DNA of 64,000 bases, from NCBI RefSeq assembly GCF_001831495.1, contig NZ_CP017689.1, forward strand, positions 3,658,001-3,722,000, written 5' to 3'. The notes below the pieces were generated by a model. The model did not search any database. It had not been told where the DNA came from and saw nothing but the letters and a program-made list of their open reading frames with translations. The position numbers and the translations under genes are program-made. The DNA is from Thalassotalea crassostreae. Its GTDB lineage: Bacteria > Pseudomonadota > Gammaproteobacteria > Enterobacterales > Alteromonadaceae. Of the stretch, positions 1 through 22,365 are shown piece after piece (position 1 is the first letter of the stretch; each line of letters begins with the position of its first letter).

Positions 1-699
1 GTAGTAGGTGCGATCTTCATTATCTAAATCAGCAACACCTTCGGCTAAATTTTCTTGTAGGGCATCACGTTCTTTTTTAGAGACAGTAACAATAGCGGAA
101 AAAATATCACCTAAGCCACCAGTCACTTGACCTTGAGTTAACAAGTAACCATCGTTACCAGCTTCTAAATTAATATAGCCGCCAAAGTCTTTTTGTGGTG
201 CTGTACTAATAAAGTTAATTGCACCACCAACAGCATTACGACCATATAGCGTGCCTTGAGGACCACGAAGTACCTCAATGCGATCAACATCACAGAAATT
301 ACAGTAGCTAAATACACCATTTTCAGTGTTATAAACACCATCAGTATAAATACCAACACCAGGATCTGAACCAAGAGAAGTTGTTGGACGACCTACACCA
401 CGAATAGATACTCGGTTCGAGGTGATAACTAAAGAAGGTGAGTATTGCACTAACCCTTGCGCATCATCGATACCTAAGTCTTCCATCGCATCAGAATTGA
501 AAGCACTAACGGCTTGACCTGTTTCCATTAGCGTTGTTGAACGTTTAGTTGACGTGACTTCAATAACCTCTATGCCAGCGTCTGCTTGTTCTACAGATTC
601 TTGTTGCGCATAAGCAGCGCTGCTGAATCCAGTAACGATCATAGCGCAGGCCAAAGGCGACAGTTTAAACCTTAATGCATTAGTTTTATTTTCTCTCAT
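1..699 (-). CDS. TonB-dependent receptor, N-terminal part (cut by window start)
   Basis: An uninterrupted reading frame of 233 codons runs off the window edge, so only the N-terminus is present. It begins with a signal peptide ending near SSAAYA-QQ. A TonB-dependent receptor plug follows, with the typical stretches SIRGVG, a YTDGVY segment and RIEVLRGPQGTLYGRNAVGG. The full protein should be an outer-membrane barrel that imports a scarce substrate with energy from TonB-ExbBD. An in-frame ATG at 711 is an alternative start. The GPH transporter, esterase and acyl-CoA genes downstream suggest a lipid-like, ester or glycosidic substrate. That is inference from neighbours only. Confidence 0.9.
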   Translation of the reverse strand, partial: MRENKTNALRFKLSPLACAMIVTGFSSAAYAQQESVEQADAGIEVIEVTSTKRSTTLMETGQAVSAFNSDAMEDLGIDDAQGLVQYSPSLVITSNRVSIRGVGRPTTSLGSDPGVGIYTDGVYNTENGVFSYCNFCDVDRIEVLRGPQGTLYGRNAVGGAINFISTAPQKDFGGYINLEAGNDGYLLTQGQVTGGLGDIFSAIVTVSKKERDALQENLAEGVADLDNEDRTYY

Positions 700-785
700 G
701 TTTATTCCCATATTTCCTGTTGTTCTATTTTTATTATTTTGTTTTAGTTTGACGTTATTTTTAGTTGTTTAAATTGGCTTTAAAT

Positions 786-2207
786 TTATTTAGCTCTTTG
801 TTCACTTAACACAGCACATATCTGTGTATGCTTGTCTTTGTTTAAATCATATTTAGTGGCAAAGAATACTGCGATTAAGTAAATTGCCATTGGCAATGGA
901 CCAGCAATTAGACCTAAATTAAAAAGATCATCAGCACTTACCATCGATGGAGCGACTTGCTTTGGAAAAGCGATAACGTCCAAGCCAATGCCAGCTATTA
1001 ATGCGCCGACACCATAAGCTGCTTTTTGTGCAAATGAATTTGCGGCAAAGAAAAGACCTTCTTGACGCTTACCTGTGTTGGTTTCATGCAAATCAGCAAC
1101 GTCTGCTAACATCGAGCCGATAACAATGCCACCGGCAATAAATAGGCTGTATCCAACAACATAAGTCGAAAACAATATTGGCATAATTAGTGCTGAACCA
1201 TTTTCTGGCATGATATTGAATAAACGCAGAATGATTGGGCTAAAACTAACTAATGTAGCAAGTAGTAAACACCATACTAAACTTGGCATTTTGTCGATTT
1301 TTTTCGATAATACAGGGGCAATTATCGTTGCCGGAATTAGACCGACGACAATCGTTAAGGTAAGCACTGAAATTTCCGCCGTTGATAATGCGAAGAAGTA
1401 ACTACCGGTATAGAGGAGAAATGTTGTACCAGCACCGCCAGCAATCATACTTAATACTTGGACAGTAAAAACAGCTCTGAAAGGCGCTAATTTTAATGCT
1501 TCGAAAAAAGCTTTAAAGCTTCGCTTAAAGTCTACTTTCTTCTCACTTTTAGCTGGTTTAGGTAAAAATGGAATGACATTTTTAGTACCAACTATACATA
1601 TAATCATGGCAACAAAAGCAATAACCGCGGCGAGTAAGCCAAGATCTGAATAACCAGCAGGATTGAGCATGCCATACGGATTTTGTTCCGATACCTTAAA
1701 GAAGGTATTAAGGGCAATAACGGAAAGCGCAATACCGCCGACATATCCTAAGAAGGTTCGATAACTAACAATTTTAGTTCGCTCTTGATAATCACTACTA
1801 AGCTCTGCTCCCAGCGCATTGTGAGGCACGTTAAATAATGTCAGCATCACTCGAACCACGATAGACCAGCCTAATAACCATAAAAACAAGCTATCTTGAT
1901 TTAATCCTTCTGGCGGCGAGAAAAGCATATACAGAGCTAATGGAAAAGGAATAACTGCGGCAATCATAAATGGATGTCTACGACCCCATTTTGATTGCCA
2001 ATTATCGGAAATATCACCCATTAACGGATCGGTGACAGCATCGACAATTAACGCAATTAACGCAGCAAATCCGGCCATGACAGCAGGCATGCCTAACACT
2101 TGGCTAAAGTAGAATACGACAAAGGACTGGAACGCAGTATCTTTGACGCCCTGTGACATCTGGCCGATGCCATAAGACACCTTTGTTAAAAACGTTAATT
2201 TAAGCAT
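786..2207 (-). CDS. GPH-family sugar/cation symporter-like MFS transporter
   Basis: This is an inner-membrane carrier of 473 residues with about 12 hydrophobic segments. Its N-terminus carries the signature of the glycoside-pentoside-hexuronide:cation symporter family (MelB fold): DAVTDPLMGDISD at about residues 56-68, followed by GRRHPF at 75-80. Asp residues in this segment are the usual cation/substrate contacts. A GAGAAG-like ribosome site (GAGAAG) lies 4 bases before the ATG. The gene lies downstream of nothing on its strand and is divergent from the carboxylesterase, with a conserved 22-bp element in the shared promoter region. The substrate cannot be read from sequence. GPH members near beta-oxidation genes may carry steroid- or glycoside-like compounds, so sugar transport should not be assumed. 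Confidence 0.85.
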   Translation of the reverse strand: MLKLTFLTKVSYGIGQMSQGVKDTAFQSFVVFYFSQVLGMPAVMAGFAALIALIVDAVTDPLMGDISDNWQSKWGRRHPFMIAAVIPFPLALYMLFSPPEGLNQDSLFLWLLGWSIVVRVMLTLFNVPHNALGAELSSDYQERTKIVSYRTFLGYVGGIALSVIALNTFFKVSEQNPYGMLNPAGYSDLGLLAAVIAFVAMIICIVGTKNVIPFLPKPAKSEKKVDFKRSFKAFFEALKLAPFRAVFTVQVLSMIAGGAGTTFLLYTGSYFFALSTAEISVLTLTIVVGLIPATIIAPVLSKKIDKMPSLVWCLLLATLVSFSPIILRLFNIMPENGSALIMPILFSTYVVGYSLFIAGGIVIGSMLADVADLHETNTGKRQEGLFFAANSFAQKAAYGVGALIAGIGLDVIAFPKQVAPSMVSADDLFNLGLIAGPLPMAIYLIAVFFATKYDLNKDKHTQICAVLSEQRAK

Positions 2208-2265: not shown

Positions 2266-2287
2266 CTAATTTGAACTTACAGTATGT
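2266..2287 (+). promoter_or_regulatory. Conserved 22-bp element, copy A (putative fused-TetR operator)
   Basis: The core TTTGAACTTACAGTATGT and its four preceding bases are identical to the copy at 14556-14577. The site lies between the divergent transporter and carboxylesterase genes. It contains the near-palindrome TTACA-gta-TGTAA. A related half, TACTTACAAG, follows exactly 20 bp downstream (C2276 to C2296). A third similar sequence (TTTACATACCTG, reverse strand) overlaps 2387-2400. The nearest plausible regulator is the double TetR protein at 14795. That assignment is inference. Confidence 0.6.
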
Positions 2288-2379
2288 AAATGCTACTTAC
2301 AAGAATTTTTTAACAAAAAAATGACATAATTAAAAGAGCTTTAACTCTAAAAATAATGAATTGAATCCAATTTTAACTA

Positions 2380-3957
2380 ATGGTAGGTTTACATACCTGT
2401 CATTCAAAACAGCAAAGTCCAATGCCTGAATATAGTTATCTAAAACTGCCCCACCACAACATTAAAGGATTAAAAAACAATACCTTAAAGTTTCTCGGCA
2501 TCAACTATGGATGCTCTGTAGAGCACACTAAACGTTGGCAACCTTCTAAGCTAAAACCATTTACACAAGAACACGCGACATCATTTGGCGCAATTGCGAT
2601 GCAAAGCCAAGAAAATAATTCATTGTTAATCGCCAAGGAAGATCAATTTCAACAAAGTGAAGATTGCCTTAGCCTAAATATTTATATTCCTAATGAATTG
2701 AACCATGAAAATGAAAAGCTACCGGTAATGGTTTGGATTCATGGCGGTGGCTTTCAAATTGGCAGTGGGTCGATGGCTTTATATAACGGCGAACACTTAG
2801 CTGAAAGTGCAAATGTAATTGTTGTTAGTATTAATTATCGACTTGGGGCTCTCGGCTTTCTCCGCCTTTGTGATATCAGCGATGGTGCAATACCGTCTAC
2901 TGGTAATGAAGGATTAACAGACCAAATTACGGCCTTAAAATGGGTACAACAAAACATCTCTCATTTTGGTGGGGATAAAAACAATGTAACCGTTTTTGGT
3001 GAATCTGCTGGCGCAATGAGTATTGCATGCTTATTAGCTTCACCATATACCAAAGGGTTAATTCATAAAGCTATTTTAGAAAGCGGTGCTGCTCATACCT
3101 ACTCTTCTATCGATAAAGCTAATGAGGTCGCCAAAGAATTTATCAACAGCGCAACTGAATTAGGTTTCGCTGTTACCGATCTGAGTAACGCTTCAATAGA
3201 CGACTTACTGCGTATACAACAACACTTCTTAGGTCGTGCTGAGATCTATCAAAAATTTGGAATTTTGCCTTTTACCCCGGTGATTGACGGTGATTTATTG
3301 CCGTTAGAACCCCATGTTGCAATCGAACAAGGTAGTGCAAAAAACATCAGTATATTATCAGGTTCGAATACCGATGAGTGGACGTTATTTGCTGCAATGC
3401 TAAATCAAAACACCCAATCTAATGATGCATTAAATAAGGCATTGTCCTATCTAATGGATAGTGATTTAGTAAAACCTTGTTTATCTCTTATCGATAAGCA
3501 ATTAGCCCAACGCCATCAGCATAAATCACCACAAACGAGGCTAAATGAGGCCTTTACTGAATATTGGTTTACTCAACCCTGTCATAGACTGTTAAATAAT
3601 CACGCTCTCGCGGGCGGAACAGCCTTTAGATATAAGCTGGGTCGTAAAACTGTGATTAAAAAGCTTGGTTGTACTCATGTCACCGATATTGGTTTTGTTT
3701 TCGGCAATGTTATTGAAAATTTCCATGGTAATTCGCCACGAGTAATTGAATTATCAAATCAAATGCAATCCTGCTGGGCCAATTTCGCTCATTATTCAAC
3801 GCCCGCGACCAATACAGTTGACTGGCCTAAATATCATCCAGACAGTGAATATCAGTTCTTATACTTTGATCATGAACACAATTGGACAGCACAAGCAGAT
3901 AAAGAATCGTTGGATTTTTGGCAACAAATAAGTGACCAACAATTGGCCTCATTTTAA
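2380..3957 (+). CDS. Type-B carboxylesterase
   Basis: This is an alpha/beta-hydrolase of the carboxylesterase type-B family, predicted to cleave carboxylic esters. The oxyanion-hole motif HGGGF is at 121-125. The nucleophile elbow is FGESAG with Ser209. A GCTHVTDIGFVFG segment supplies the likely catalytic His. No signal peptide is evident, so the enzyme is probably cytoplasmic. The ATG at 2380 has no ribosome site. An in-frame ATG at 2422 (protein starting MPEYSYL) is equally plausible and would leave the operator-like sequence at 2383-2400 outside the gene. The stop overlaps the next start by one base (TAATG), so esterase and MATE exporter are probably translated together. Length is normal for the family. 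The natural ester is unknown. Confidence 0.88.
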   Translation: MVGLHTCHSKQQSPMPEYSYLKLPHHNIKGLKNNTLKFLGINYGCSVEHTKRWQPSKLKPFTQEHATSFGAIAMQSQENNSLLIAKEDQFQQSEDCLSLNIYIPNELNHENEKLPVMVWIHGGGFQIGSGSMALYNGEHLAESANVIVVSINYRLGALGFLRLCDISDGAIPSTGNEGLTDQITALKWVQQNISHFGGDKNNVTVFGESAGAMSIACLLASPYTKGLIHKAILESGAAHTYSSIDKANEVAKEFINSATELGFAVTDLSNASIDDLLRIQQHFLGRAEIYQKFGILPFTPVIDGDLLPLEPHVAIEQGSAKNISILSGSNTDEWTLFAAMLNQNTQSNDALNKALSYLMDSDLVKPCLSLIDKQLAQRHQHKSPQTRLNEAFTEYWFTQPCHRLLNNHALAGGTAFRYKLGRKTVIKKLGCTHVTDIGFVFGNVIENFHGNSPRVIELSNQMQSCWANFAHYSTPATNTVDWPKYHPDSEYQFLYFDHEHNWTAQADKESLDFWQQISDQQLASF

Positions 3958-5291
3958 TGAATACGAAAACCACAGGCTCTAAACTGCCGCCATCAATTTG
4001 GAGTCTAGCCTGGCCTACAACGATAGCCAATTTGCTGCTTGCCTCGGTCGGCTTTATTCAAATTGTTATGTCGACCAAATATGGTAGCGATGCTACCGCT
4101 GCGATGACGGTCAGTCAGAGGATTTTCTTTTTACTTCAATCAGCTCTATTTGGTTTATCTGCAGGTGCCTCAGCGATTATTGCCCGACATTTCGGTGCCA
4201 ACGAGCAACACAAAGCAGGTCAAGCTTTTCAAAGTGCAATGTTAATCAGTTTTATTATTTCGCTGCTGTTGGCGACCTTATGTTTTATTTACGCTGAGCA
4301 CTTTACTCATTGGTTCGGTATGGATGAAAAAACCGAGCAAATGGCAATTTCATTTATTAAATGGATTTGTCTCTTTAGCCCAATTTACTCATTAAACATT
4401 ATTATTGCCGGTTCATTGCGCGCCAGTGGTGATGCTATGCACCCTTTACTGTTAGCGATAATGAGTAGTTTTGGTAATGCCTTCGGTTGCTATGCTTTTA
4501 GTACTGGTAGCTTTGGTGCACCAAACTTAGGTGTTGAAGGGTTAATTATTGGTGGTGTTTTAGGCTCAATCATATCGTTGCTCTTCTATATCTGTATGTG
4601 GCACAAAAATCGTTTAATCCTTCCATTTCCTGAGCAAAGTTCATATCGTAAAAAGACTCAAGTATTGCTGCGCATTGGCATGCCAAGTGCTGTAGAACAA
4701 ACCATCATTCAAATTGGTTTTTTAGTCTTTACCATCGCCGTCGCTAGCTACGGCGTTGAAGTGCTAGCCGCTTATGGACTTGGCTTGAATGTTCTAACAC
4801 TGTTATTGATCACTTCACTGGCATTTTCTATGTCAGGTGCTGTTGTTGTTGGTCAATATTTAGGTCGTAAAGAACCTGAGAAAGCTTATCAACAAGGTTG
4901 GGCAGCATGGCGAATTTGTGTGGCATTTATGACATTTTTTGGCTTGATATTTTTTATCTTTAATCATCAAATCGCAGCCATGTTGACCACTGAAGAGATA
5001 GTGCAGAGCCATACCGCCTTATTTCTTGTCATTATCGCATTTTCGATGCCATTAATAGCCACAGACTTTACCATTGGCGGTGCCATTCGGGGTGCTGGTG
5101 ATACTACCTATCCTCTTAAAGTATCTTTAATAACACTACTACTAGTACGAATAATTTTGCCTTTTGTGTTTATTTATCTACAGCTGTCATTTTTATCTTT
5201 ATTTATCTTAACCGCCGTTGATTTTCTTATTAAAGCGGTATTTATGGTGCGCTATTTTAGAAACCGTAAATGGCAAACAACGACTTTCTAA
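3957..5291 (+). CDS. MATE-family multidrug/metabolite exporter
   Basis: This is a 444-residue inner-membrane antiporter with about 12 transmembrane segments and the internal two-fold repeat of MATE/NorM proteins. Each half has a segment of the form GAxxxIARxFGA / GAVVVGQYLGRKEPEKA, followed by a G-x-IRGAGDT or GSLRASGDA motif. Family members export cationic drugs or metabolites using Na+ or H+ gradients. The start codon overlaps the carboxylesterase stop, so it is in the same operon. It might export a toxic cleavage product of the esterase substrate. That role is an inference from gene order only. Confidence 0.9.
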   Translation: MNTKTTGSKLPPSIWSLAWPTTIANLLLASVGFIQIVMSTKYGSDATAAMTVSQRIFFLLQSALFGLSAGASAIIARHFGANEQHKAGQAFQSAMLISFIISLLLATLCFIYAEHFTHWFGMDEKTEQMAISFIKWICLFSPIYSLNIIIAGSLRASGDAMHPLLLAIMSSFGNAFGCYAFSTGSFGAPNLGVEGLIIGGVLGSIISLLFYICMWHKNRLILPFPEQSSYRKKTQVLLRIGMPSAVEQTIIQIGFLVFTIAVASYGVEVLAAYGLGLNVLTLLLITSLAFSMSGAVVVGQYLGRKEPEKAYQQGWAAWRICVAFMTFFGLIFFIFNHQIAAMLTTEEIVQSHTALFLVIIAFSMPLIATDFTIGGAIRGAGDTTYPLKVSLITLLLVRIILPFVFIYLQLSFLSLFILTAVDFLIKAVFMVRYFRNRKWQTTTF

Positions 5292-5327
5292 TCTAAACAA
5301 AAGCATATTCTATTTTAAACAAAACCA

Positions 5328-5349
5328 TTAATTTGACCTTAGAGTATTT
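5328..5349 (+). promoter_or_regulatory. Conserved 22-bp element, copy B (before fadH operon)
   Basis: The sequence TAATTTGACCTTAGAGTATT matches copies A and C at 18 of 22 positions and lies 59-80 bases upstream of the fadH start. A TACTTAAAAATATT half follows 18 bp later, a similar arrangement to the tandem halves of copies A and C. It probably binds the same regulator, as the downstream operon belongs to the same catabolic island. Confidence 0.55.
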
Positions 5350-5374
5350 TTTTTTACTTAAAAATATTCTATAG

Positions 5375-7426
<2,052 letters not shown>

Positions 7427-7433
7427 TACCAAT

Positions 7434-7976
7434 ATGTTCGACATCACGATGATTGGTAGCAGTATATTTGAGTTTTGGGGACAACCCAAGTGGGGCCAAT
7501 TAAGGATTTCAAATTGTGCCGTTCGAAGCACTCAGTCTGAAGATTGGTTAAATTATGATTTAACCAATTTACCAGCGTCAAACCACATTCTTGTTTACTG
7601 TGGCAGTAACGACCTTATCTTTGATAAATCAGCAACGCAAATTATCGGTAACGTTTGCACACTGCTCGATAAGCTCGCCGAACATTTTCCAAATGCTCGA
7701 TTGGGATACTTTTCGATTATGTTGTGCCCACAAAAATCTCAAGCCAAGCAATTGCAAATCATTAACGATATTAACCAACAAATAGCGAACTATTGTCATT
7801 ATAAATATGACTATTTTGATTTTAATGACTTTATCGATAATGACGATAAATGGTTTGTAGAAGACGGCCTTCATTTAACCGAACAAGCTTATACGATGTT
7901 GAATGAAAAGCTAACACCAATCCTGACCCAGTGGGCCAAACAAAATTCAAAAGCAACTAAATTCAACGATAACTAA
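7434..7976 (+). CDS. SGNH/GDSL-type esterase
   Basis: This is a 180-residue hydrolase of the SGNH fold. Block I reads MIGSSIFEFWG with the nucleophile at about Ser9/Ser10. GSND at 57-60 supplies the oxyanion Asn. DGLHL at 144-148 supplies the catalytic Asp and His. No signal peptide is seen, so it acts in the cytoplasm. It starts 7 bases after the fadH stop, with no obvious ribosome site, and is probably translated as part of that operon. It may act as a thioesterase or deacetylase on an intermediate. The exact substrate cannot be read from the sequence. Confidence 0.82.
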   Translation: MFDITMIGSSIFEFWGQPKWGQLRISNCAVRSTQSEDWLNYDLTNLPASNHILVYCGSNDLIFDKSATQIIGNVCTLLDKLAEHFPNARLGYFSIMLCPQKSQAKQLQIINDINQQIANYCHYKYDYFDFNDFIDNDDKWFVEDGLHLTEQAYTMLNEKLTPILTQWAKQNSKATKFNDN

Positions 7977-7991
7977 CACGAGAGTAGACCA

Positions 7992-8804
7992 ATGAATCAC
8001 TTATTTTCTATCGATAACAAAGTAGCCATAGTTACAGGCGGCTCTCGTGGTATCGGAAAAATGATCAGTCAAGGTCTAGTAGAACAAGGTTGTAAGGTCT
8101 ACATTACGGCTCGTAATCAAACCGAACTTGAGGCTACAGCTAACGAACTTAACGAGTTGGCAGGTAAGCAATTATGTCTTCCAATTCATGCCGATTTGTC
8201 GACAATGCAAGGCATAATGACGTTTGTTGAAGCGATTAAAACGAAAGAGAAGAAAATTGATATCTTAATTAATAATGCCGGCGCTACTTGGGGTGCGCAA
8301 TACTCTGAATTTCCGGAAGTTGGTTGGGATAAAGTAATGAACCTTAATGCAAAGGCACCGTTTTTTGTGACTCAACAATTACTTGATGTCTTGGCTGAGT
8401 CAGCAACTGCAGAAGAGCCCGCTAGAGTAATCAACATAGCTTCAATAAATGCATTCAACAATCCAAGAATGACAAATTATTCTTATGCTGCGAGCAAAGC
8501 GGCAGTTGTACAATTAACCCGGCATTTAGCAGCGGATCTAGTTGATAAAAATATTAATATCAATGCAATTGCACCAGGATTTTTTCTTAGCAAAATGACT
8601 GAATATTCGATTGAAAATAAAGACCAACAAACATTCGTCAAAAATATGGTACCCAAAGGTCGATTAGGCAATAAAGATGACATCTGTGGTGCGGTTATTT
8701 ATTTGTCGTCAAAAGCATCAAATTGGATGACGGGACATACCTTAGTACTCGACGGCGGTGTTATTGCTGCTAGCGGATTTGGTGAATACGGTGACTTTAT
8801 TTAA
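7992..8804 (+). CDS. Short-chain dehydrogenase/reductase
   Basis: This is a classical SDR of 270 residues. The nucleotide-binding motif TGGSRGIG is at 15-22, the NNAG motif follows, and the catalytic Tyr165-x3-Lys169 pair lies in YAASKAA. Such enzymes oxidise or reduce a secondary alcohol/ketone with NAD(P)(H). It is the third gene of the fadH-SGNH-SDR operon, 15 bases after the SGNH gene. Its C-terminus GEYGDFI resembles gluconate-5-dehydrogenase and 3-oxoacyl-reductase relatives. In this context a hydroxyacyl-CoA or a ring alcohol is a likely substrate. The exact substrate is inferred only. Confidence 0.88.
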   Translation: MNHLFSIDNKVAIVTGGSRGIGKMISQGLVEQGCKVYITARNQTELEATANELNELAGKQLCLPIHADLSTMQGIMTFVEAIKTKEKKIDILINNAGATWGAQYSEFPEVGWDKVMNLNAKAPFFVTQQLLDVLAESATAEEPARVINIASINAFNNPRMTNYSYAASKAAVVQLTRHLAADLVDKNININAIAPGFFLSKMTEYSIENKDQQTFVKNMVPKGRLGNKDDICGAVIYLSSKASNWMTGHTLVLDGGVIAASGFGEYGDFI

Positions 8805-8900
8805 GTGACTTTTGTTTAAGTGACTTAAATAAAGTTTCGCAGCCCGCTTTAAAATGCCATACAGGCTGCAATAATTCTAATTTAAACCTGCTTTAGGTTA

Positions 8901-9896
8901 TTAATTGCTATTGGGGTAAATGCTTTTCCATTCATTTTTCATATCTACTACTGTCCAACCAAGCTCCTTGGCCATATCTAAACCTTTACTTAAATGGCCG
9001 ATTTTTGACTTTCGATCGTATGCCCACTCTCGTTTTTCATCGGTATGATGAATAATCATACCTAAACGAGCGCCTTGACCGGAAGTTGTATATTGCAGCA
9101 TCTGAATATCGCCATCTGAATTACCAAAAGCAGCAATTGGGCGTTTGCCAATATGATTGCTTATGCCAATAACTTTATTGTGTTTATTGTTATAAAAGCT
9201 CATTTCTGGGTAACGAACAATGACTCTCTTACCATCAACTTCTTCGTACTTAGTTACCATAATTGTGCCGACGATTTGCTCTGCGGGGATGCCGTAGACA
9301 AGATCTGACCAGGCCCTAATAAACTCAATGCCTCCACCAGATACAATGTAATTTTTAAAGTCATTTACTTTTAAGTAGTTAATCAACTCCAACATTGGTT
9401 GATATATCATCTCACTAAACTTTTTTTTGCTTACCGGATGTGTCGCACGACCCATCCACTCTTTCACAATTTCAGTGTATTGTTCATTAGTCATGCCAGC
9501 ATTCGCTGCCATGACAATATCCATTACAGCATCGTCACCAGCACTAAGAGCCCCTTTAATATCTCCCTTTAATATCAAAGAGAAAGGTTGCTTGGTTTTC
9601 CATTCAGGGTATTTTTCCGCAAGCACATGGATACGCTCTATGGCAAACATAAGCTGTGCGTATAAAGGTTGCTCTGCCCACAATGTACCGTCATTATCAA
9701 ACGTTGCAATGCGATCACCTTTAGCCACAAAATCCGGATTTTCAGGGTCGGTAACACGTTCAACAAAGTTAATGATTGTTTGTTTACTAACTCCGTCATT
9801 CCATGATGGCAATGGATCTTTCGCTACCGCAGACCAGTTAAAAGTAAACACTAAACTAAGCCATATAACAGCTCTAATATATTTATTTTTCTGCAT
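8901..9896 (-). CDS. Exported HAD-superfamily phosphatase
   Basis: This is a haloacid-dehalogenase-fold hydrolase with motif I FDNDGT (nucleophile D67, acid/base D69), motif II in YIVSGGG and motif IV GNSDGD. A signal peptide of about 25 residues (hydrophobic core IWLSLVFTFNW, cleavage after SAVA) sends it to the periplasm. The ATG at 9896 is chosen because GGAG precedes it and because an upstream extension to 9947 would bury the signal peptide. At 331 residues it is longer than simple HAD enzymes, with a cap of about 100 residues between motifs I and II. It probably removes phosphate from an imported substrate. It is convergent to the SDR gene and may be co-transcribed with the thiolase operon downstream. 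Confidence 0.83.
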   Translation of the reverse strand: MQKNKYIRAVIWLSLVFTFNWSAVAKDPLPSWNDGVSKQTIINFVERVTDPENPDFVAKGDRIATFDNDGTLWAEQPLYAQLMFAIERIHVLAEKYPEWKTKQPFSLILKGDIKGALSAGDDAVMDIVMAANAGMTNEQYTEIVKEWMGRATHPVSKKKFSEMIYQPMLELINYLKVNDFKNYIVSGGGIEFIRAWSDLVYGIPAEQIVGTIMVTKYEEVDGKRVIVRYPEMSFYNNKHNKVIGISNHIGKRPIAAFGNSDGDIQMLQYTTSGQGARLGMIIHHTDEKREWAYDRKSKIGHLSKGLDMAKELGWTVVDMKNEWKSIYPNSN

Positions 9897-10020
9897 ATTT
9901 GTCTCCGTAATCATTTTAAAGTAAACAAGCCCAGTCCCCTTTCTCATCGAGAAAAGAGCCTAGGCTTGGGGAGCTTTTTAATAATGAAATAAGTGGCACT
10001 TAATCCATTATTTACCGAAC

Positions 10021-11199
10021 TTAAAGAACTTCAAATAAACCTGCTGCCCCCATACCACCGCCGACACACATAGTGACAACAACGTATTTAACACCGCGAC
10101 GTTTACCTTCAATCAGTGCATGACCGACCATTCGTGCACCGCTCATACCGTAAGGATGACCAATAGAGATTGCACCACCATTAACATTAAGCTTTTCCAT
10201 CGGGATTTTTAAAATATCAGCACAATAAAGTACTTGTACAGCAAACGCTTCATTAAGCTCAAATAATCCAATATCATCAACTGTTAAACCATGTTGCTTA
10301 AGTAGTTTTGGCACCGCATAAATAGGACCAATGCCCATCTCATTTGGCTCACAACCTGCCACCGCAATTCCCATATATCGACCTAATGGTTGTAGGCCTT
10401 TTTGTTCAGCTAACTTCTCTTCCATTAGCACTGATGCTGAAGCGCCGTCAGATAGCTGGCTGGCATTACCGGCAGTAATACAACCACCTTCAATGACCGT
10501 TCTAAGTCCCGCTAGACTTTCTGCCGTAGTTGCTCGAATCCCCTCGTCACCGGACAAAGTTACTTCATGGTAAGAAACTTCTTTAGTTTCTTTATCCATA
10601 ACAGCTTTGGTCGTTGTCATCGGAACAATTTCAGCGTCATAATGACCTGCAGCGGCCGCTGCCGCTGTGCGATTTTGACTTAACAAGCCATATTCATCCT
10701 GACGTTCTTTACTAACACCATACTTACTTGCGACTAACTCAGCCGTTTGTAACATCGGCATATAGATATCTTGGTGCATACCGACTAGCTTTTTATCAAC
10801 CGCCATATGCATATTCATATGTTCATTTTGAACCAGTGAAATAGATTCTAATCCGGCGCCGATAGTAATATCCATACCATCACAAATAATTTGTTTCGCA
10901 GCCGTCGCTATCGACATTAAACCAGACGAACATTGACGATCGAGTGACATGCCACTAACCGTTACTGGCAATCCACCAGCTAACGCTGCTTGACGACCGA
11001 TGTTCATTGATGCTGTGCCTTGTTGCATTGCACAGCCCATGATCACATCTTCTACTTCTGCACCTTCAATCCCTGCTCGAGCTACCGCATGCTCTATCGC
11101 ATGCCCACCTAATGTTGGCGCCGATGTCATATTAAAAGCACCACGGTAAGCTTTACCAATTGGTGTACGAGCTGTTGATACGATTACTGCATTTCTCAT
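10021..11199 (-). CDS. Acetyl-CoA C-acyltransferase (thiolase)
   Basis: This is a 392-residue thiolase that cleaves 3-ketoacyl-CoA with CoA to acetyl-CoA (or propionyl-CoA) and a shortened acyl-CoA. The acyl-enzyme Cys90 lies in LDRQCSSG, His348 in GHPYGMSG, and the base Cys378 in CVGGGMG near the C-terminus. AAGGAAT precedes the ATG. It lies downstream of an acyl-CoA ligase, MaoC and SDR genes on the same strand, which together give a complete beta-oxidation round except for the dehydrogenase. The chain-length specificity cannot be read directly, and a monofunctional FadA-like or SCP2-like role are both possible. Confidence 0.92.
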
Positions 11200-11230
11200 T
11201 TTGATAGATTCCTTATTTATCTAAACTCAA

Positions 11231-12151
11231 TTATTTCGAGCTTAGATCTACACCAAGCGAAGCTGCTGCTTTGCCAACGTATTTATTTGTTTGCATCCAA
11301 CCCGCTTTCAATTCAACGGCATTGCTCTCCTCTTCAATGTCACTCCAATTAGCAAGGATATTTTCAGGTGTTTGTTGCTCAGGAGTTAAATAAATACCAT
11401 CGGTTTCTTTAATGACAGCACGGGCATAACCGCCAGCACCACAACCAAGAATCGAGCGGTTTGGTGAATCTTCTGCCACTAATGCCAGTAAACCTGTGGT
11501 AACTGATTCAACGGTCATCATTTCAAGTACACGTTTGTCTTCAATAAGATCTTCAGTCATTGCAGTACGAGCTGTTGGTGATAGGCAATTTACTTTAATG
11601 CCGTATTTTTCACCTTCAATGCAAAGCGTATTCATAAAGCCTACAACCGCCATTTTCGCTGCACCGTAATTTGCTTGACCAAAGTTACCGTAAAGGCCAG
11701 AAGATGATGTAGTCATGGCAATGCGACCATATTTTTGTGCTTTCATGATATCCCAAACAGCTTTGGTACAATTCACTGAGCCGATTAAATGCACATCTAC
11801 GACTAATTGGAAATCTTCAATTGGCATATTAGCAAATGATTTATCACGTAAAATACCAGCATTATTCACTAAAATATCAATGCGTCCCCATTTTTCCATG
11901 ACCTGCTCAACCATAGTTTGCACTTGCGCCATATCGGCAACATTTGCACCATTGGCGATAGCTTCACCGCCTGCCGCTTCAATTTCGGCAACCACAGAAA
12001 GCGCACCAGCAGACATTGAGCCATCTCTTGCAGCTAAGTCATTAACCACAACTTTTGCGCCACGCGCTGCTAAAGCTAATGCGTGAGAACGACCTAAACC
12101 TGCGCCTGAACCTGTAACTATGGCCACTTGACCGTCATATCTTACTGACAT
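11231..12151 (-). CDS. SDR-family 3-hydroxyacyl-CoA dehydrogenase (HSD17B4-like)
   Basis: This is a 306-residue SDR with TGSGAGLG at 13-20, NNAG near 97-100 and the catalytic Tyr162-x3-Lys166 pair in NYGAAK. The long form, with an LNDLA-type segment after the first strand (VVVNDLAARDG), resembles the dehydrogenase domain of peroxisomal multifunctional enzyme type 2 (HSD17B4). Such proteins oxidise 3-hydroxyacyl-CoA, including branched or steroid side-chain substrates. It sits between a MaoC hydratase and a thiolase, exactly the partners expected. A ribosome site (AGAGG) lies 5 bases before the ATG. About 50 C-terminal residues beyond the SDR core are present, as in that subfamily. Confidence 0.87.
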   Translation of the reverse strand: MSVRYDGQVAIVTGSGAGLGRSHALALAARGAKVVVNDLAARDGSMSAGALSVVAEIEAAGGEAIANGANVADMAQVQTMVEQVMEKWGRIDILVNNAGILRDKSFANMPIEDFQLVVDVHLIGSVNCTKAVWDIMKAQKYGRIAMTTSSSGLYGNFGQANYGAAKMAVVGFMNTLCIEGEKYGIKVNCLSPTARTAMTEDLIEDKRVLEMMTVESVTTGLLALVAEDSPNRSILGCGAGGYARAVIKETDGIYLTPEQQTPENILANWSDIEEESNAVELKAGWMQTNKYVGKAAASLGVDLSSK

Positions 12152-12239
12152 AAAAACCTCTTTTTAAATTGAATTTGTATTTGTATTTGTACATAACGAT
12201 TTGTACGAAACTATTATTGGAATGTTGTTGACGTTTAAT

Positions 12240-12704
12240 TTATTCACCAACAATTGTCATTGTTAACCATTGTGCAGTTAACGCTGGTTTTTGTTCACCG
12301 TCTATCTCCACGGTGACATCCCACGTATATAAAAACTGTCCTGGGCGCTTTTCAATCACATCGGCTAATATCATGCGTCCGCGAACTTGACTATCTACCT
12401 TAACTGGCTGTAAAAAACGTATTTTTTCAAAGCCATAATTAAGACCCATCACGGTATTTTCTAAATTTATTGCGGCATCGTAGGCAATCGCAGAGAAAAG
12501 TGACAACGAAAGAAAACCATGGGCAATTGTGCCGCCAAATGGTGAAGACTTTGCTTTATCAGGATCACAATGAATGTATTGCTGATCGTGAGTCGCTTCA
12601 CCAAATTGATTGATTTGTTGTTGGGTAATTGTGAACCAACGCGATACACCAGTTTCTGTACCCACATATTGTTGTAGGTCACGAGCGTTAATATTAATGG
12701 TCAT
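12240..12704 (-). CDS. MaoC-family (R)-enoyl-CoA hydratase
   Basis: This is a 154-residue single hot-dog protein of the MaoC/PhaJ family. The hydratase motif appears as the segment DPDKAKSSPFGGTIAHGF, where the Asp and His are the usual catalytic pair. It hydrates trans-2-enoyl-CoA to the 3-hydroxyacyl-CoA used by the SDR downstream. It starts 37 bases after the ligase gene and ends 88 bases before the SDR on the same strand, so all four genes probably form one operon. The length is normal for the bacterial single-domain subgroup. Confidence 0.88.
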   Translation of the reverse strand: MTININARDLQQYVGTETGVSRWFTITQQQINQFGEATHDQQYIHCDPDKAKSSPFGGTIAHGFLSLSLFSAIAYDAAINLENTVMGLNYGFEKIRFLQPVKVDSQVRGRMILADVIEKRPGQFLYTWDVTVEIDGEQKPALTAQWLTMTIVGE

Positions 12705-12741
12705 AAGTTTTGCCTAATGGTAAGTTTGTTTGCCAATAAAA

Positions 12742-14475
12742 TTAGCGGTCGTATAAAGCCTTTAGGGCTCGTTTGTTAATTTTTCCAGATCCCAATTTCG
12801 GTAACTTCTGTTGATGAAACCAAATAGCTTCTGGTACTTTAAATTGTGCTAAGTGCTGGGCAACAAATTCTTTAAGTTGCTCTGTATCTAAACTTGAAGA
12901 CTCTGAAACAGTCACTGCAGCACCAACAACTTCTCCAAGTCGTTGGTCAAAAATAGAAAAGGCTGACGCTTCGATAATTTGCGGGTGTTTATACAAGGCA
13001 GATTCGACTTCCAGACAAGAAATGTTCTCGCCACCGCGAATAATAATGTCTTTAGCTCTATCCACGATAAATATAAAACCATCTTCATCTAAGTAGCCAA
13101 GATCACCGGTACGAAAGTAGCCGTCGATAAACGCGGCTTTGGTTATTTCTGGCTCTTGCCAATATTCGACGATATTAGAAATTGATTTGATTGCGATTTC
13201 GCCAACTTCACCGACCGATAAATATTGATCATCTTCACTGACAATTTTTACATCAACCACTGGTGGCGTTGGTAAGCCTGCACTGCTAGGTTTCTTTACA
13301 TAATCTGCTGGTCCATTGACCGCACCTAGAGCATTGGTTTCAGTAAGGCCGTATCCACAACTCGGATTGCCATTATCAAAAGCGTTATAAATTTTGCGTA
13401 CATGCTCTGGTGGCCTTGCCGCGCCGCCAGCACAAACATCACTGAGTGAAGATAAGTCATAATTGTCTTTATCAGGATGCTCCATCAATTCCATTGACAT
13501 AGTAGGCACACCGTTAAAATAAGTAATGCGCTCTTGTTCGATCAATTTCAGTGCGAGTTCAGCATCCCAATAGGGCATCATCACGGTTTTTCTACCGGAT
13601 ATCATCGACAACAAAAATAGGGTATGACAACCAGTAACGTGAAACAATGGCACTGTCATTAACGCAGCCGCCTCAAACGCCGGTGCAGAGCTAGCTGAGG
13701 AAGTCGTCGCAGGACCATTTGCCACCGCGGCGGCAGTACCTAACATTAACCAGGTATTTATCGCAGTTAAAATGCTTTCATGAGTTGATACTGCTCCTTT
13801 AGGCACCCCCGTAGAACCTGAAGTGTAAAAGATAGTCGCAACGTCATCACTTGCGACACTTGAATCAATGAGTTCACATTCTAAAAATGGCACTAACATT
13901 GAATTAAAGTCGTAATTCTTAGGTTGGCTTTGAGATGGACGGGCAATAATGCAGGGGAAATTTTGCTGTTGTAACCAACTATCGAGCAGCGAAAAACGTT
14001 TATCATCAGTAATTAATAATACCGATTGACTATGCTCAATTACTTGAACGAACTCCGATTCTTGTAGCCAGGCATTTAGCGGTACTGCAACAGCACCTAA
14101 CATGGTAATACCCATAAAAGCGACGATCCACTCTGGGTAGTTACGCATTGCGATGGCGACTTTGTCACCTTTTTGTACTGAATATTCAGATTGCAAAACA
14201 TAAGCAAAAGCGTTCGCGCGTTTAAGCAATGAACTATAACTGTGCCTTTCCTCATTAAATACTAGGAACTCTTTATCACCGTGCGCCGTTGCAGCGGCTT
14301 GATACATAGCACCAAGATTTATTGGTAGATTCGAAAATGCGGTGTATTCAATATTGTTTCTAGTTTTGTTGGTAACTTCGAAGCTACCTCCTGCCGCGGT
14401 AATGACGTTTATTTCATCCACGACCTTATCGGCGGTCACCAATTCAATTGTTATGTCTTGATTTTGCAAGCCCAT
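12742..14475 (-). CDS. Acyl-CoA ligase (ANL superfamily)
   Basis: This AMP-forming acyl-CoA synthetase is the activating enzyme of the operon ligase-MaoC-SDR-thiolase. The P-loop motif YTSGSTGVPKG lies at about 217-227. The A5/A8 regions follow (GYGLTE; YFRTGDLGYLDEDGF; then DRAKDIIIRGGENI), and the catalytic Lys in GSGKINKR is near the C-terminus. An Ala/Ser-rich insert of about 25 residues (roughly 246-270) precedes the VPLFHVTGC helix and is longer than in typical FadD. The ATG at 14475 is preferred over a TTG at 14493, because AGGA lies 6 bases before the ATG while the TTG sits against its own purine stretch. The acid substrate is unknown. Confidence 0.88.
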   Translation of the reverse strand: MGLQNQDITIELVTADKVVDEINVITAAGGSFEVTNKTRNNIEYTAFSNLPINLGAMYQAAATAHGDKEFLVFNEERHSYSSLLKRANAFAYVLQSEYSVQKGDKVAIAMRNYPEWIVAFMGITMLGAVAVPLNAWLQESEFVQVIEHSQSVLLITDDKRFSLLDSWLQQQNFPCIIARPSQSQPKNYDFNSMLVPFLECELIDSSVASDDVATIFYTSGSTGVPKGAVSTHESILTAINTWLMLGTAAAVANGPATTSSASSAPAFEAAALMTVPLFHVTGCHTLFLLSMISGRKTVMMPYWDAELALKLIEQERITYFNGVPTMSMELMEHPDKDNYDLSSLSDVCAGGAARPPEHVRKIYNAFDNGNPSCGYGLTETNALGAVNGPADYVKKPSSAGLPTPPVVDVKIVSEDDQYLSVGEVGEIAIKSISNIVEYWQEPEITKAAFIDGYFRTGDLGYLDEDGFIFIVDRAKDIIIRGGENISCLEVESALYKHPQIIEASAFSIFDQRLGEVVGAAVTVSESSSLDTEQLKEFVAQHLAQFKVPEAIWFHQQKLPKLGSGKINKRALKALYDR

Positions 14476-14555
14476 ATTTCGTCCTGTCAGCAACTCCTTT
14501 AAAGCGATAAACTGAGTCTTCTATCAAAGCCTTAAAGCATGTTGGTATTAATTCA

Positions 14556-14577
14556 CTAATTTGAACTTACAGTATGT
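14556..14577 (+). promoter_or_regulatory. Conserved 22-bp element, copy C (before acyl-CoA ligase operon)
   Basis: It is identical over all 22 bases to copy A at 2266-2287, with core TTTGAACTTACAGTATGT. A second, related half TACCTTCAAGTATTTT lies 20 bp further on, as in copy A. Position is 81-102 bp upstream of the ligase start, in inverted orientation relative to that gene. Confidence 0.6.
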
Positions 14578-14747
14578 TTTAAATACCTTCAAGTATTTTC
14601 GAATATAATGTGACAATAAATCGGCTATTAAAAGGTCAAATTCCACTTATTCACTTTCAATGGAAGTCATAAAAACTGATATTTAATAGAGTCTTATTAT
14701 TCTAAAAATAGATTGGTTGAACAAATTTGTTGGATAACATAGAATGG

Positions 14748-14766
14748 AATTGACCTTTCGGTATAA
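14748..14766 (+). promoter_or_regulatory. Weaker copy D of the conserved element (before TetR gene)
   Basis: AATTGACCTTTCGGTAT matches copy B (TTTGACCTTAGAGTAT) with about four differences. It lies about 30-47 bp before the start of the double TetR gene and overlaps a TATAAT-like hexamer at about 14762-14768, as expected for an autoregulatory site. The assignment is weaker than for copies A-C. Confidence 0.35.
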
Positions 14767-14794
14767 TTTTTGAATAACCTAATGTATAAGCAAA

Positions 14795-16069
14795 ATGCCT
14801 GCAAATAAAAAAAATAAAATTAGTTCTCCATTTAGCAAAACCAATCAACACGATAATAAATATAAAACTATTTTATCTGCTGCATCTGAGCTATTTAATA
14901 TTTATGGTACCCGCGGAACAACGCTGACACAGATAGCTGACAAGCTCAAATTGACCAAAACCAGTCTTTATTATTACGTCAAGACTAAAGAAGAACTGGT
15001 TCACCAATGTTACTTAAACACCTGTATAGAAATGCAATCAATGGTGGAATCTGCTCTTGCGCTTGAAGGTAGTGCACTCGATAAATTAGAAAAGCTAATA
15101 CGTCTTAATTTTGATTGTTGGAATGATATTGTCGATGGTAATCGTGGTCATTTGGCAGGTTTAACGGAAATTGCATCACTGTCTGAAAATCATCAAAAAG
15201 AAATCTCCGAGTACTACCGTCACTTCGTTATCCAAGTCATTAACATTATCGAAGAAGGTCAGACTGATGGCAGTATGCAAAACGTTTCTCAGGTAAAAAC
15301 TTCGAATGCTATCTGGGGCACAATTTTTTGGCTACCAATATGGTTAAACGCAGTAAAACCAGAAGCTAGAGAAGAAGCATTTAATCAGCTAATTTCTGTT
15401 ATTCGATACGGTTTGAATAATCAGTCACAACAATTTGAATTTCAACCATTTGCGCATGAACAAATACAAACGGCTCCGGAAGGGTTTAATCGCCAACAAC
15501 AAAACCGGAAAAAACAAGAAGCATTTTTTCGAGTAGGCTCAATATTCTTTAACCAAAAGGGCTTCAAGGGAACATCTCTTGATGAGTTAGCGAGCTCTTT
15601 AGGTGTCACTAAAGGTGCATTTTATTATCACATTAAGAATAAAGATGATTTACTGGTTAAATGCTTTGAACGAACGCTGAATATTGAAAATAAAGTGTTA
15701 GAAGAATCTCTTAAAATATCGTCTACAGGTATTAATAAATTAGCTTTTGCAGCTCAAAAGTTATTTAATATTCAAGTAGGCGACCAAGGGCCATTAATTC
15801 GTTATGCCACAATGTGGTCTTTTGACCTAGAAAGACGTAAACAGATAGAGCAAGCCTTTAAAGAAACTCGAGTGATATTTGGTAAAGTAATTCAACTTGG
15901 AATAGACGATAAAAGCATTAAAAATGTCGACCGTATGGTTGCCGAGAATATTATCGCCGGTGCCATTGAAGCAATACCTGATATGGCCTCAGCAATGAGT
16001 AAAGATGAACTTAAAGATTCATCGAATGAATACTTCCACATATTTTTTAATGGCATAGCGACACAATAA
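14795..16069 (+). CDS. Fused double TetR-family transcriptional regulator
   Basis: This 424-residue protein contains two complete TetR units in tandem. The first helix-turn-helix spans about 42-61 (TTLTQIADKLKLTKTSLYYYV), the second about 260-279 (TSLDELASSLGVTKGAFYYHI). Each is followed by its own helical ligand domain of about 130-150 residues. Ordinary TetR proteins are near 200 residues and work as dimers, so this one is a covalent pseudo-dimer or a two-headed regulator. It lies divergently from the acyl-CoA ligase operon and probably senses an acyl-CoA intermediate. The tandem half-sites with about 20-bp spacing in the conserved elements fit a two-headed binder. Target assignment is inference. 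The start lacks a clear ribosome site. Confidence 0.88.
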   Translation: MPANKKNKISSPFSKTNQHDNKYKTILSAASELFNIYGTRGTTLTQIADKLKLTKTSLYYYVKTKEELVHQCYLNTCIEMQSMVESALALEGSALDKLEKLIRLNFDCWNDIVDGNRGHLAGLTEIASLSENHQKEISEYYRHFVIQVINIIEEGQTDGSMQNVSQVKTSNAIWGTIFWLPIWLNAVKPEAREEAFNQLISVIRYGLNNQSQQFEFQPFAHEQIQTAPEGFNRQQQNRKKQEAFFRVGSIFFNQKGFKGTSLDELASSLGVTKGAFYYHIKNKDDLLVKCFERTLNIENKVLEESLKISSTGINKLAFAAQKLFNIQVGDQGPLIRYATMWSFDLERRKQIEQAFKETRVIFGKVIQLGIDDKSIKNVDRMVAENIIAGAIEAIPDMASAMSKDELKDSSNEYFHIFFNGIATQ

Positions 16070-19541: not shown

Positions 19542-20273
19542 ATGTTAGATAATAAAGAAGGTCAAAACGTACCTAGCGTTGTATTCCCAACCCGTCAAAA
19601 CAACGAATGGAAAAACGTTTCTACTGATGAATTATTTAAAGGTAAAACCGTTGTTTTATTCTCATTACCAGGCGCGTTCACACCGACGTGTTCATCTACG
19701 CATTTGCCTCGCTACAACGAGTTAGCAAAAACATTTAAAGAAAATGGCGTTGATGAAATTGTTTGTGTTTCAGTAAACGATACCTTTGTTATGAATGCTT
19801 GGGCGGCTGATCAAGAATCAGACAACGTTACCCTAATTCCTGATGGCAACGGCCAGTTCAGTGAAGGTATGGGCATGCTTGTAGACAAAAGCGACATCGG
19901 TTTTGGCAAACGTAGCTGGAGATATTCAATGCTAGTTAAAGACGGTGTTGTTGAGAAAATGTTTATTGAACCAAATGTTCCGGGCGACCCGTTTGAAGTT
20001 TCTGATGCAGACACAATGTTGGAGTACATCAATCCAACAGCGAAAAAACCACAATCAGTAAGTATCTTCACCAAACCTGGTTGTCCATTTTGTATAAAAG
20101 CAAAAGAGTTATTAACTGCAAATGGCTATGACTACGAAGAAATCGTTTTAGGTAGTGGTGCAAGTTTAACGTCACTTAAAGCAATTACTGGTCGTGAAAC
20201 TGTCCCGCAAGTATTTATTGATAACCAGCATATCGGTGGTAGTGACGATTTAGCCGCTTTTTTAGAAAGCTAA
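19542..20273 (+). CDS. Peroxiredoxin-glutaredoxin fusion (hybrid Prx5/Grx)
   Basis: This is a 243-residue fusion. Residues 1-165 are a Prx5-type peroxiredoxin with peroxidatic Cys50 in [14 protein letters not shown]. Residues 170-243 are a glutaredoxin with active site CPFC (Cys181, Cys184). The enzyme reduces hydrogen peroxide and alkyl peroxides with glutathione supplied through its own Grx domain. The known family is found in many gammaproteobacteria. TAGGAG lies ahead of the ATG. It stands alone as a transcription unit, downstream of a 188-bp region with no other gene, and ends before a palindrome that may terminate its transcript. Confidence 0.95.
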
Positions 20274-20304: not shown

Positions 20305-20370
20305 AAACTGGGGTCAGAGTCAGATTAATTTTATTTTTATAAGGAATTAATCTGACTCTGACCCCGGTTT
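20305..20370. repeat. Perfect 21-bp palindrome, REP/RAYT-like, possible terminator
   Basis: Arms at 20310-20330 and 20345-20365 (GGGGTCAGAGTCAGATTAATT and its complement) are a perfect 21-bp inverted repeat. They extend to about 26 bp with one T-G pair (AAAC/GTTT), around a 14-base loop. The right arm is followed by a T run. The sequence resembles solo ends of REP-associated transposons, and a degenerate TGGACTCTGACACCAG lies at about 33404. It also could end transcription of the Prx-Grx gene in both directions. Confidence 0.75.
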
Positions 20371-21411: not shown

Positions 21412-21735
21412 ATGATTGTAGAAAAGCTAACCAATACCCTCAACGAAAAAAAAGCTGAACTCACCAAGCGCTTAGTCGCTATTGAGAAAGACTTTCAAAA
21501 AGGTCGCAGCCAAGACTTCGCAGAACAAAACACAGAATCAGAAAACGATGAGGTTTTAGTCGAGATCTGTGAACAGACTCGCTTAGAACTAAACAAGATT
21601 GAACAAGCATTAGCATTACTGCAAACAGAACAATACGGTATTTGCAGCACCTGCGGAGATAAAATTGGCGAACAGCGCCTAACTGCATTGCCTTATGCCA
21701 AAACCTGTATTAGCTGCGCTCAAACTGAACACTAA
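21412..21735 (+). CDS. DksA/TraR-type C4 zinc-finger protein
   Basis: This is a 107-residue relative of DksA/TraR. A coiled-coil-like N-terminal half with NEKKAELTKRLVAIEKDF is followed by a zinc-binding motif CSTCGDKIGEQRL...CISCA with four cysteines. Such proteins bind the RNA polymerase secondary channel and modulate transcription. It is shorter than true DksA (about 150 residues). AAGGAG lies 7 bases before the ATG chosen here at 21412. It is followed 39 bases later by ydcH, possibly co-transcribed. Confidence 0.85.
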   Translation: MIVEKLTNTLNEKKAELTKRLVAIEKDFQKGRSQDFAEQNTESENDEVLVEICEQTRLELNKIEQALALLQTEQYGICSTCGDKIGEQRLTALPYAKTCISCAQTEH

Positions 21736-21774
21736 ATACTAAATACTAAATAACAATATCAAAGGATTAAAATT

Positions 21775-22029
21775 ATGAACATTCAAAAACACGATTTGCA
21801 TCACGAATTTCCTGAGTATCACGATGAAATCCATGAACTAAAAATGAGCAACAATCATTTTGCTAAAGTATTTAAGGCTTATCATGAGCTTGATCATGAA
21901 GTTATTCGCATTGAAGAAGGTGTAGAAAATACATCGGATGATTACTTGGAATCATTAAAGAAACAACGTCTTAATCATAAAGATGAGCTATTTTTAATGA
22001 TTAAAAAATACCAAACCAAAAAGGCTTAA
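21775..22029 (+). CDS. YdcH-family (DUF465) protein
   Basis: This is an 84-residue helical protein of the YdcH/DUF465 family, with the characteristic HDEIHELKMSNNHFAKVFKAYHELDHEVIRIEEG segments broken here into HDEIHELKMSNNHF and YHELDHEVIRIE. AAAGGA precedes the ATG. Family function is unknown. It is close behind the DksA-like gene and ends ahead of a strong terminator hairpin, so the two genes probably form one short operon. Confidence 0.85.
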   Translation: MNIQKHDLHHEFPEYHDEIHELKMSNNHFAKVFKAYHELDHEVIRIEEGVENTSDDYLESLKKQRLNHKDELFLMIKKYQTKKA

Positions 22030-22085
22030 ATACACTATTTAAAGTCTTATAAACTTCATCATATAACGATGAATTTATGCCAAAG

Positions 22086-22117
22086 AAAGCGCCTGTTGTG
22101 GCGCTTTTATTTTTTCT
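22086..22117 (+). terminator. Rho-independent terminator after ydcH
   Basis: Stem AAAGCGCC / GGCGCTTT with loop TGTTGT is followed by TTATTTTTT. It is 57 bases after the ydcH stop and ends the DksA-like/ydcH operon. Confidence 0.8.
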
Positions 22118-22197
22118 GACGCCTAAAACCGTAAAAACAACTCCGACATGTTAAAATTTTGTGAAAAATCATCATGGTATTTGCTATGCTTAAGAAA

Positions 22198-22324
22198 TAG
22201 CATTTATCTAGGTTTGATGCGGGATTGATTAAACTATTTCGGCTGTTTCATTAAAACACTGAATTTTCGACACCGTGAGAGTTTGATAAATTTTGTAAAT
22301 CCTATCAAACGTGATTAAATGCTA
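22198..22324. repeat. 127-bp segment with imperfect terminal inverted repeats
   Basis: TAGCATTTA opens and TAAATGCTA closes the segment, and the similarity continues inwards (a left TAGCATTTA-TC..GGTTTGAT against a right ATCAAACGTGATTAAATGCTA) for about 24 bases. A further arm pair GTTTGATA/TATCAAAC lies at 22281-22288 and 22303-22310. No target duplication is seen at the flanks. It may be a small non-autonomous element or a folded leader. It sits in the 336-bp gap before the coiled-coil gene, otherwise empty. Confidence 0.4.
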
Positions 22325-22365
22325 GTAGTAATAATAACGATATATAAAAACAACAAGAGCTTATT

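Follow-up and report, generated by a model that had tools for sequence, protein, structure and literature searches.

A non-palindromic putative operator and its probable fused double-TetR regulator in an acyl-CoA catabolic island of Thalassotalea crassostreae

Repressors with two TetR units in one polypeptide are already known. They are infrequent according to PMC11667970, which presents the structure of Mce3R from Mycobacterium tuberculosis as the first of such a protein. In that account Mce3R reads an asymmetric operator, has stronger and weaker sites before a target, is encoded inside its own regulon and has lipid-related targets, and DNA looping is left as an open question. The TetR-family proteins PsrA, FadP and LiuQ of Proteobacteria control acyl-CoA catabolism, in the breakdown of fatty acids or branched-chain amino acids, as the regulator proposed below would; a proteobacterial regulon survey (PMC5343134) names these three and FadR for related pathways. 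The survey looked for palindromic motifs and states that most of its motifs are of this type. Here we describe a 22-bp element in a 64,000-nucleotide stretch of the Thalassotalea crassostreae genome (contig NZ_CP017689.1, positions 3,658,001 to 3,722,000; the whole stretch is called the window), where it recurs in a catabolic island that also encodes a fused double-TetR protein. The element is most probably the operator of this adjacent protein, a single-chain pseudo-dimer that would repress acyl-CoA catabolism. Each feature of Mce3R given above has a likeness here: two TetR units per chain, a putatively asymmetric operator, sites of unequal strength before a target, a regulator gene inside its own predicted regulon and lipid-related targets. 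The system differs from Mce3R in its operator and genes, in its occurrence in Gammaproteobacteria and in an operator that appears to hold the -10 of the promoter. By analogy the fused TetR may work like Mce3R; orthology is not claimed. In the open-licence literature we found no account of this fused TetR family, its operator or its regulon.

The original prediction gave the coordinates of four copies of the element exactly. Copies A (2266-2287) and C (14556-14577) are identical at 22 of 22 bp, copy B (5328-5349) agrees with A at 18 of 22, and copy D is weaker than these three, being weak when judged from the window's genome alone. Its four units under these copies become five target promoters with the addition of a fifth, weak copy, E (2367-2390), which had been overlooked. 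The 22-bp repeat is beyond chance, since in 20 dinucleotide shuffles of the window the longest direct repeat reaches only 15–18 bp. When as many as 3 mismatches are allowed, AATTTGAMCTTASAGTAT matches the 3.86-Mb genome at 18 places: A, B and C have no mismatch, none has 1 or 2, and 15 have 3. The reversed AATTTGAMCTTASAGTAT gives 16 matches under the same limit. The consensus of the putative operator is AATTTGAACTTACAGTATGTTT, and it is non-palindromic, with a best similarity to its own reverse complement of 5.6 of 24.2. The sites, with their counterparts in the family islands compared below, are as follows.

2266..2289, plus strand: putative operator A, before the leftward MFS_2 transporter and TonB receptor genes; counterpart in 7/7 islands including the region
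2367..2390, plus strand: putative operator E (weak), before the carboxylesterase and MATE genes; counterpart in 6/7 islands; overlaps the first listed ATG at 2380
5328..5351, plus strand: putative operator B, before the rightward genes for the fadH-type reductase, GDSL hydrolase and short-chain dehydrogenase/reductase (SDR); counterpart in 5/5 islands with fadH
5370..5375, plus strand: TATAGT, putative -10 of the fadH operon; kept in 5/5 islands with fadH
14556..14579, plus strand: putative operator C, before the leftward acyl-CoA ligase, MaoC, SDR and thiolase genes; counterpart in 8/8 islands
14745..14768, plus strand: putative operator D (weak), before the fused TetR gene; runs into TATAAT at 14762-14767; counterpart in 8/8 islands

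Because operator E overlaps the ATG at 2380, the true esterase start may lie further downstream; homology of the esterase starts at about residue 34-39 in most islands.

The regulator gene has a patchy distribution, being present in 9 of the 395 Alteromonadaceae genomes searched (one copy is cut by a contig end) and in 2 of the 15 genomes listed for the genus. At higher ranks, 2 of 394 order-level genomes have it, as does 1 of 321 when the class is screened at E 1e-50; both counts include the window's own genome. Searches in two genera gave an orthologue in 2 of 22 and 2 of 13 genomes, none additional to those already found. Seven further family islands (our handles G134, G662, G697, G453, G643, G501 and G692) were compared with that of the window, eight in total; the genome with the cut gene, G538, was kept in the co-occurrence count and left out of the alignment. 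By tblastn, gene order is conserved in G134, G662, G697 and G453, three of which lack one or two genes, the island is shorter in G643 and G501, and G692 is partial. The positions and orientation of the elements are constant across islands in the counts listed above, and three of the 34 island copies fall below the score threshold of 14 (two E, and one D in G453, just under). GAACTTACAGTATG is conserved in all 15 A and C rows and GTATAATT of operator D in 7 of 8 islands. An extra copy, F, is found in three islands, before an aldehyde dehydrogenase gene in G134 (by Pfam) or a lipoprotein-like gene in G662 and G697 (by eye). The family matrix holds 37 sites from the eight islands: from 35 matches at a score of at least 14, one inside a predicted gene (G134 20915) was dropped and three lower-scoring matches at conserved positions (G662 5607, G453 7324 and G453 18447) were added. 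A further FadH-like gene, with 60% identity, is present in the G697 island at 21413-23446, on the downstream side of the fused TetR gene.

The element and the protein co-occur. With at most one mismatch, TTTGAACTTACAGTATG is found in 14 of the 395 family genomes, namely all nine with the fused TetR (eight exactly) and 5 of the 386 without it, each of these five having one 1-mismatch match; the reversed TTTGAACTTACAGTATG gives about 16 genomes with one match. Across eight genomes with the fused TetR, a degenerate pattern has 17 of its 18 matches within about 16 kb of the gene, against 2 for its reversed control. Unrelated genomic copies, a concern raised with the original prediction, are thus few: close copies are confined to the island in the window's genome and nearly all lie near the gene elsewhere.

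The site is found in other families as well. Among 305 relatives that a contig scan detected, the best 80 were taken, and five (L066-L069 and L095) were set aside as Alteromonadaceae, leaving 75 loci whose fused TetRs are 36-43% identical. The family matrix finds 55 sites at score 17 or above on these loci (1.25 Mb), spread over 46 of them, while the reversed matrix finds 0 and 20 column-permuted matrices average 0.05. These matrices replaced control windows from the rest of each locus, because those windows held sites before other genes. Related sequences are not independent, so the site counts are not probabilities. Away from the TetR gene there are 43 sites: 27 before acyl-CoA dehydrogenase genes, 10 before alkyl sulfatase, 3 before luciferase-like genes, one each before a TesB thioesterase and an SDR gene, and one without a match to any query; Pfam confirms representative target genes. 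A search of 14 whole genomes of these families with TTTGAMCTTNNRGTATGTT, allowing one mismatch, gives 26 matches, at least one per genome, and 0 for the reversed sequence. In 20 cases the gene behind the match is at least 59% identical to an acyl-CoA dehydrogenase that had been confirmed, and in one case 27% identical. Two matches stand before TonB receptor genes (34-35%) and one before an alkyl sulfatase gene, one has no match to any query, and in Exilibacterium one falls between the MaoC and fused TetR genes. The expected enrichment before acyl-CoA genes therefore holds (27/43 and 21/26 sites before acyl-CoA dehydrogenase or similar genes), and together with the family co-occurrence it supports the idea, put forward in the original prediction, of a regulon under the double-TetR protein. 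Several of the dehydrogenase sites are on contigs separate from that of the linked site (G760 C12 and G757 C16), suggesting that the regulator would act in trans. At L127, a fused TetR gene with a site is found in a contig of a metagenome-assembled genome labelled Acidobacteria, possibly misbinned.

The protein contains two TetR_N stretches within a single 424-aa chain, and its predicted model is an asymmetric TetR-like pseudo-dimer fold. Mce3R (PDB entry 9b7y) is the best solved-structure match along the full chain, with 16% identity in the structural alignment. AibR and KstR2 are further structural matches of the model, and FadR of Bacillus is the top sequence match among solved structures. 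FadR, AibR and KstR2 share the fold of each half and bind acyl-CoAs (as the entry titles of AibR and FadR state), whereas they have one TetR unit per chain. Against the curated NCBIfam cut-offs, the protein scores far too low for FadR of the Bacillus type (84.3 bits, cut-off 200) and also falls below the cut-off for PsrA (Vibrio PsrA model; 34.1 bits, cut-off 300). To our knowledge, PsrA, FadP and LiuQ are single, unfused TetR proteins. We also tried to match each half of the site with one of the recognition helices by means of a T/S difference at residue 272 and rejected this, as loci with the S protein have AGTATT before the TetR gene and GTATG elsewhere.

In the mechanism that we propose, one polypeptide would fold like a TetR dimer with unlike halves and would hence have two different recognition helices, so that a non-palindromic site would be read. 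At A and C the bound repressor would cover the spacer and the -10 of a promoter, and at D the -10 from which its own gene is transcribed. With RNA polymerase blocked, the genes for uptake, ester hydrolysis and beta-oxidation and that of the regulator itself would be silent until an acyl-CoA of the pathway released the protein. Gene content and structural neighbors indicate that the ligand is probably such an acyl-CoA. Binding, repression, autorepression and the ligand are what we infer, and because binding has this standing, the identity of the regulator rests on the comparative evidence given above. The genes of the island are as follows.

1..2207, minus strand: MFS_2 transporter and TonB-dependent receptor, targets of A (Pfam; cut by the window end)
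2380..5291, plus strand: carboxylesterase and MATE transporter, targets of E (Pfam)
5408..7426, plus strand: FadH/OYE-type flavin reductase, target of B (Pfam Oxidored_FMN, Pyr_redox_2)
7434..8804, plus strand: GDSL hydrolase and SDR, downstream of fadH (Pfam)
8901..9947, minus strand: HAD-type hydrolase, on the strand of the thiolase and downstream of it (Pfam)
10021..11199, minus strand: thiolase (Pfam)
11231..12151, minus strand: SDR, probable 3-hydroxyacyl-CoA dehydrogenase by inferred role (Pfam adh_short)
12240..12704, minus strand: MaoC-like hydratase (Pfam)
12742..14493, minus strand: acyl-CoA ligase, target of C (Pfam AMP-binding)
14795..16069, plus strand: fused double-TetR regulator, 424 aa (two TetR_N stretches; model matches Mce3R along the chain)

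The esterases of this island, taken with the alkyl sulfatases, alcohol and aldehyde dehydrogenases and thioesterases seen elsewhere, suggest that the substrates would be alcohols in esterified or sulfated form, with acyl-CoAs as the products of their oxidation. At L107 the fused TetR gene and the site-bearing dehydrogenase are separated by a gene (13608-15383) for AceK, the isocitrate dehydrogenase kinase/phosphatase, a possible link to the glyoxylate switch. Elsewhere in the window, downstream of the open reading frame at 19542-20273, there is a 21-bp inverted repeat at 20310-20365 (AATTAATCTGACTCTGACCCC and its reverse complement).

The original prediction also placed a second half 20 bp downstream of A and C, and this element is real, being conserved there as CAAG(T/A)A. 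It is absent from B, D and E; the half seen in B is a different feature, an AT-rich stretch followed by the conserved TATAGT. In A and C the element falls within a putative promoter.

2274..2302, minus strand: putative promoter in A, -35 TTGTAA (2302-2297), 17-bp spacer, -10 TAAGTT (2279-2274)
14564..14592, minus strand: putative promoter in C, -35 TTGAAG (14592-14587), 17-bp spacer, -10 TAAGTT (14569-14564)

On the minus strand every one of the 15 A and C rows carries TTGnnn-N17-TAAGTT, and the operator encloses the -10. With duplicate contexts and sites close to the end of a locus set aside, both boxes are present at 49 of 102 distinct sites and both are absent at another 49; 3 sites have the -10 only and 1 the -35 only. 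This favors the second element as the -35 of a putative promoter overlapped by the operator, and such an embedded promoter would explain why A and C have bases in common that B, D and E lack. Before the TetR gene of Halieaceae there is a related arrangement, TAGACA-N17-TAAAGT, in 30 of the 37 rows fitting the search pattern. Sites without the embedded promoter in Halieaceae loci (for example L105, L107, L112 and L136) often have a conserved GGGCATGTA block about 21 bp beyond.

Alternatively, the second element, 21 bp from the first AGTAT, could be a half-site of the regulator itself, with two fused proteins side by side about two helical turns apart. Copies of AGTAT or AAGTAT recur at an interval of 20-21 bp in C, as they do at many sites linked to acyl-CoA dehydrogenases, and AGTAT is found twice, 20 bp apart, in most of the blocks upstream of the TetR gene in Porticoccaceae. 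In addition, conservation extends to the bases immediately before the TTG box, more than a simple -35 box would account for, and a second half-site therefore keeps a real chance. However, presence of the element tracks presence of the embedded -10, with only 4 discordant sites among the 102, and at A, C and F a promoter in this orientation would point at the gene. We consider the half-site rather unlikely and prefer the overlapped promoter.

The protein could be an activator at these sites rather than a repressor, and site B, upstream of the conserved TATAGT, is placed where an activator could sit. The putative -10 is nevertheless covered by the site at A, C and D. Several Halieaceae loci, for their part, have the site about 20 bp from the start codon. 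Both arrangements suit a repressor, and we judge activation improbable.

Several observations weigh against the proposed explanation. Clear homology to Mce3R along the chain was not found by phmmer, which gives one match (E 2e-4, 23.7 bits) over residues 231-291 only, the first helix-turn-helix region of the second half. A simple promoter scan does not list the embedded promoters of A and C, and TAAGTT is a weak -10 with 3/6 of the consensus. The more distant fused TetR genes have a weaker upstream site, with 51 of 73 loci at score 10 or above (two of the 75 lack upstream sequence). Porticoccaceae carry before the fused TetR gene a different conserved block (L070-L093 and L104), which contains GTATGTTATTCTTCT and mostly a second AGTAT 20 bp on and is unlike their dehydrogenase sites. 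Finally, the gene and the site are inherited together in the island, so that shared inheritance confounds their co-occurrence in the family, and this alone cannot prove binding. The last point leaves room for a different transcription factor at the element. Against such a factor, the gene content around the fused TetR differs in other families while the site persists there, before and away from the TetR gene, and the asymmetry of the site suits a fused TetR with two unlike halves. We regard another factor as very unlikely, and retain the fused TetR as the probable regulator. A and C share all 22 bp inside a single island and might be taken for a chance repeat or a recent duplication without function. 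Their flanks differ, however, and the core retained in genomes with the distant fused TetRs already contradicts this reading, whose chance is negligible.

The distances between C and D in the eight islands are 189, 137, 180, 190, 192, 210, 127 and 180 bp. These seven distinct values lie near whole turns of 10.5 bp (R 0.85, p 0.0026), while the spacing of A and E has no helical phase (p 0.34). The unphased A-E pair, the small sample and a test of C-D phasing picked after the numbers had been seen all speak against looping, and we treat it as a lead only. The fullest picture, in which a family of pseudo-dimers in marine Gammaproteobacteria governs an acyl-CoA regulon through an asymmetric operator doubling as the -10, with a strong C and a weak D joined by a helically phased loop, is possible and is offered tentatively.

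Palindrome-based motif searches would tend to overlook such an asymmetric site. If the proposal is true, the protein would represent a second double-TetR family, one whose operator is conserved and whose predicted targets number in the dozens. Harmless marine bacteria could then serve to study the reading of an asymmetric site by a fused TetR and the question of DNA looping. Porticoccaceae/SAR92 and Halieaceae would also gain a named regulator for their acyl-CoA catabolism.

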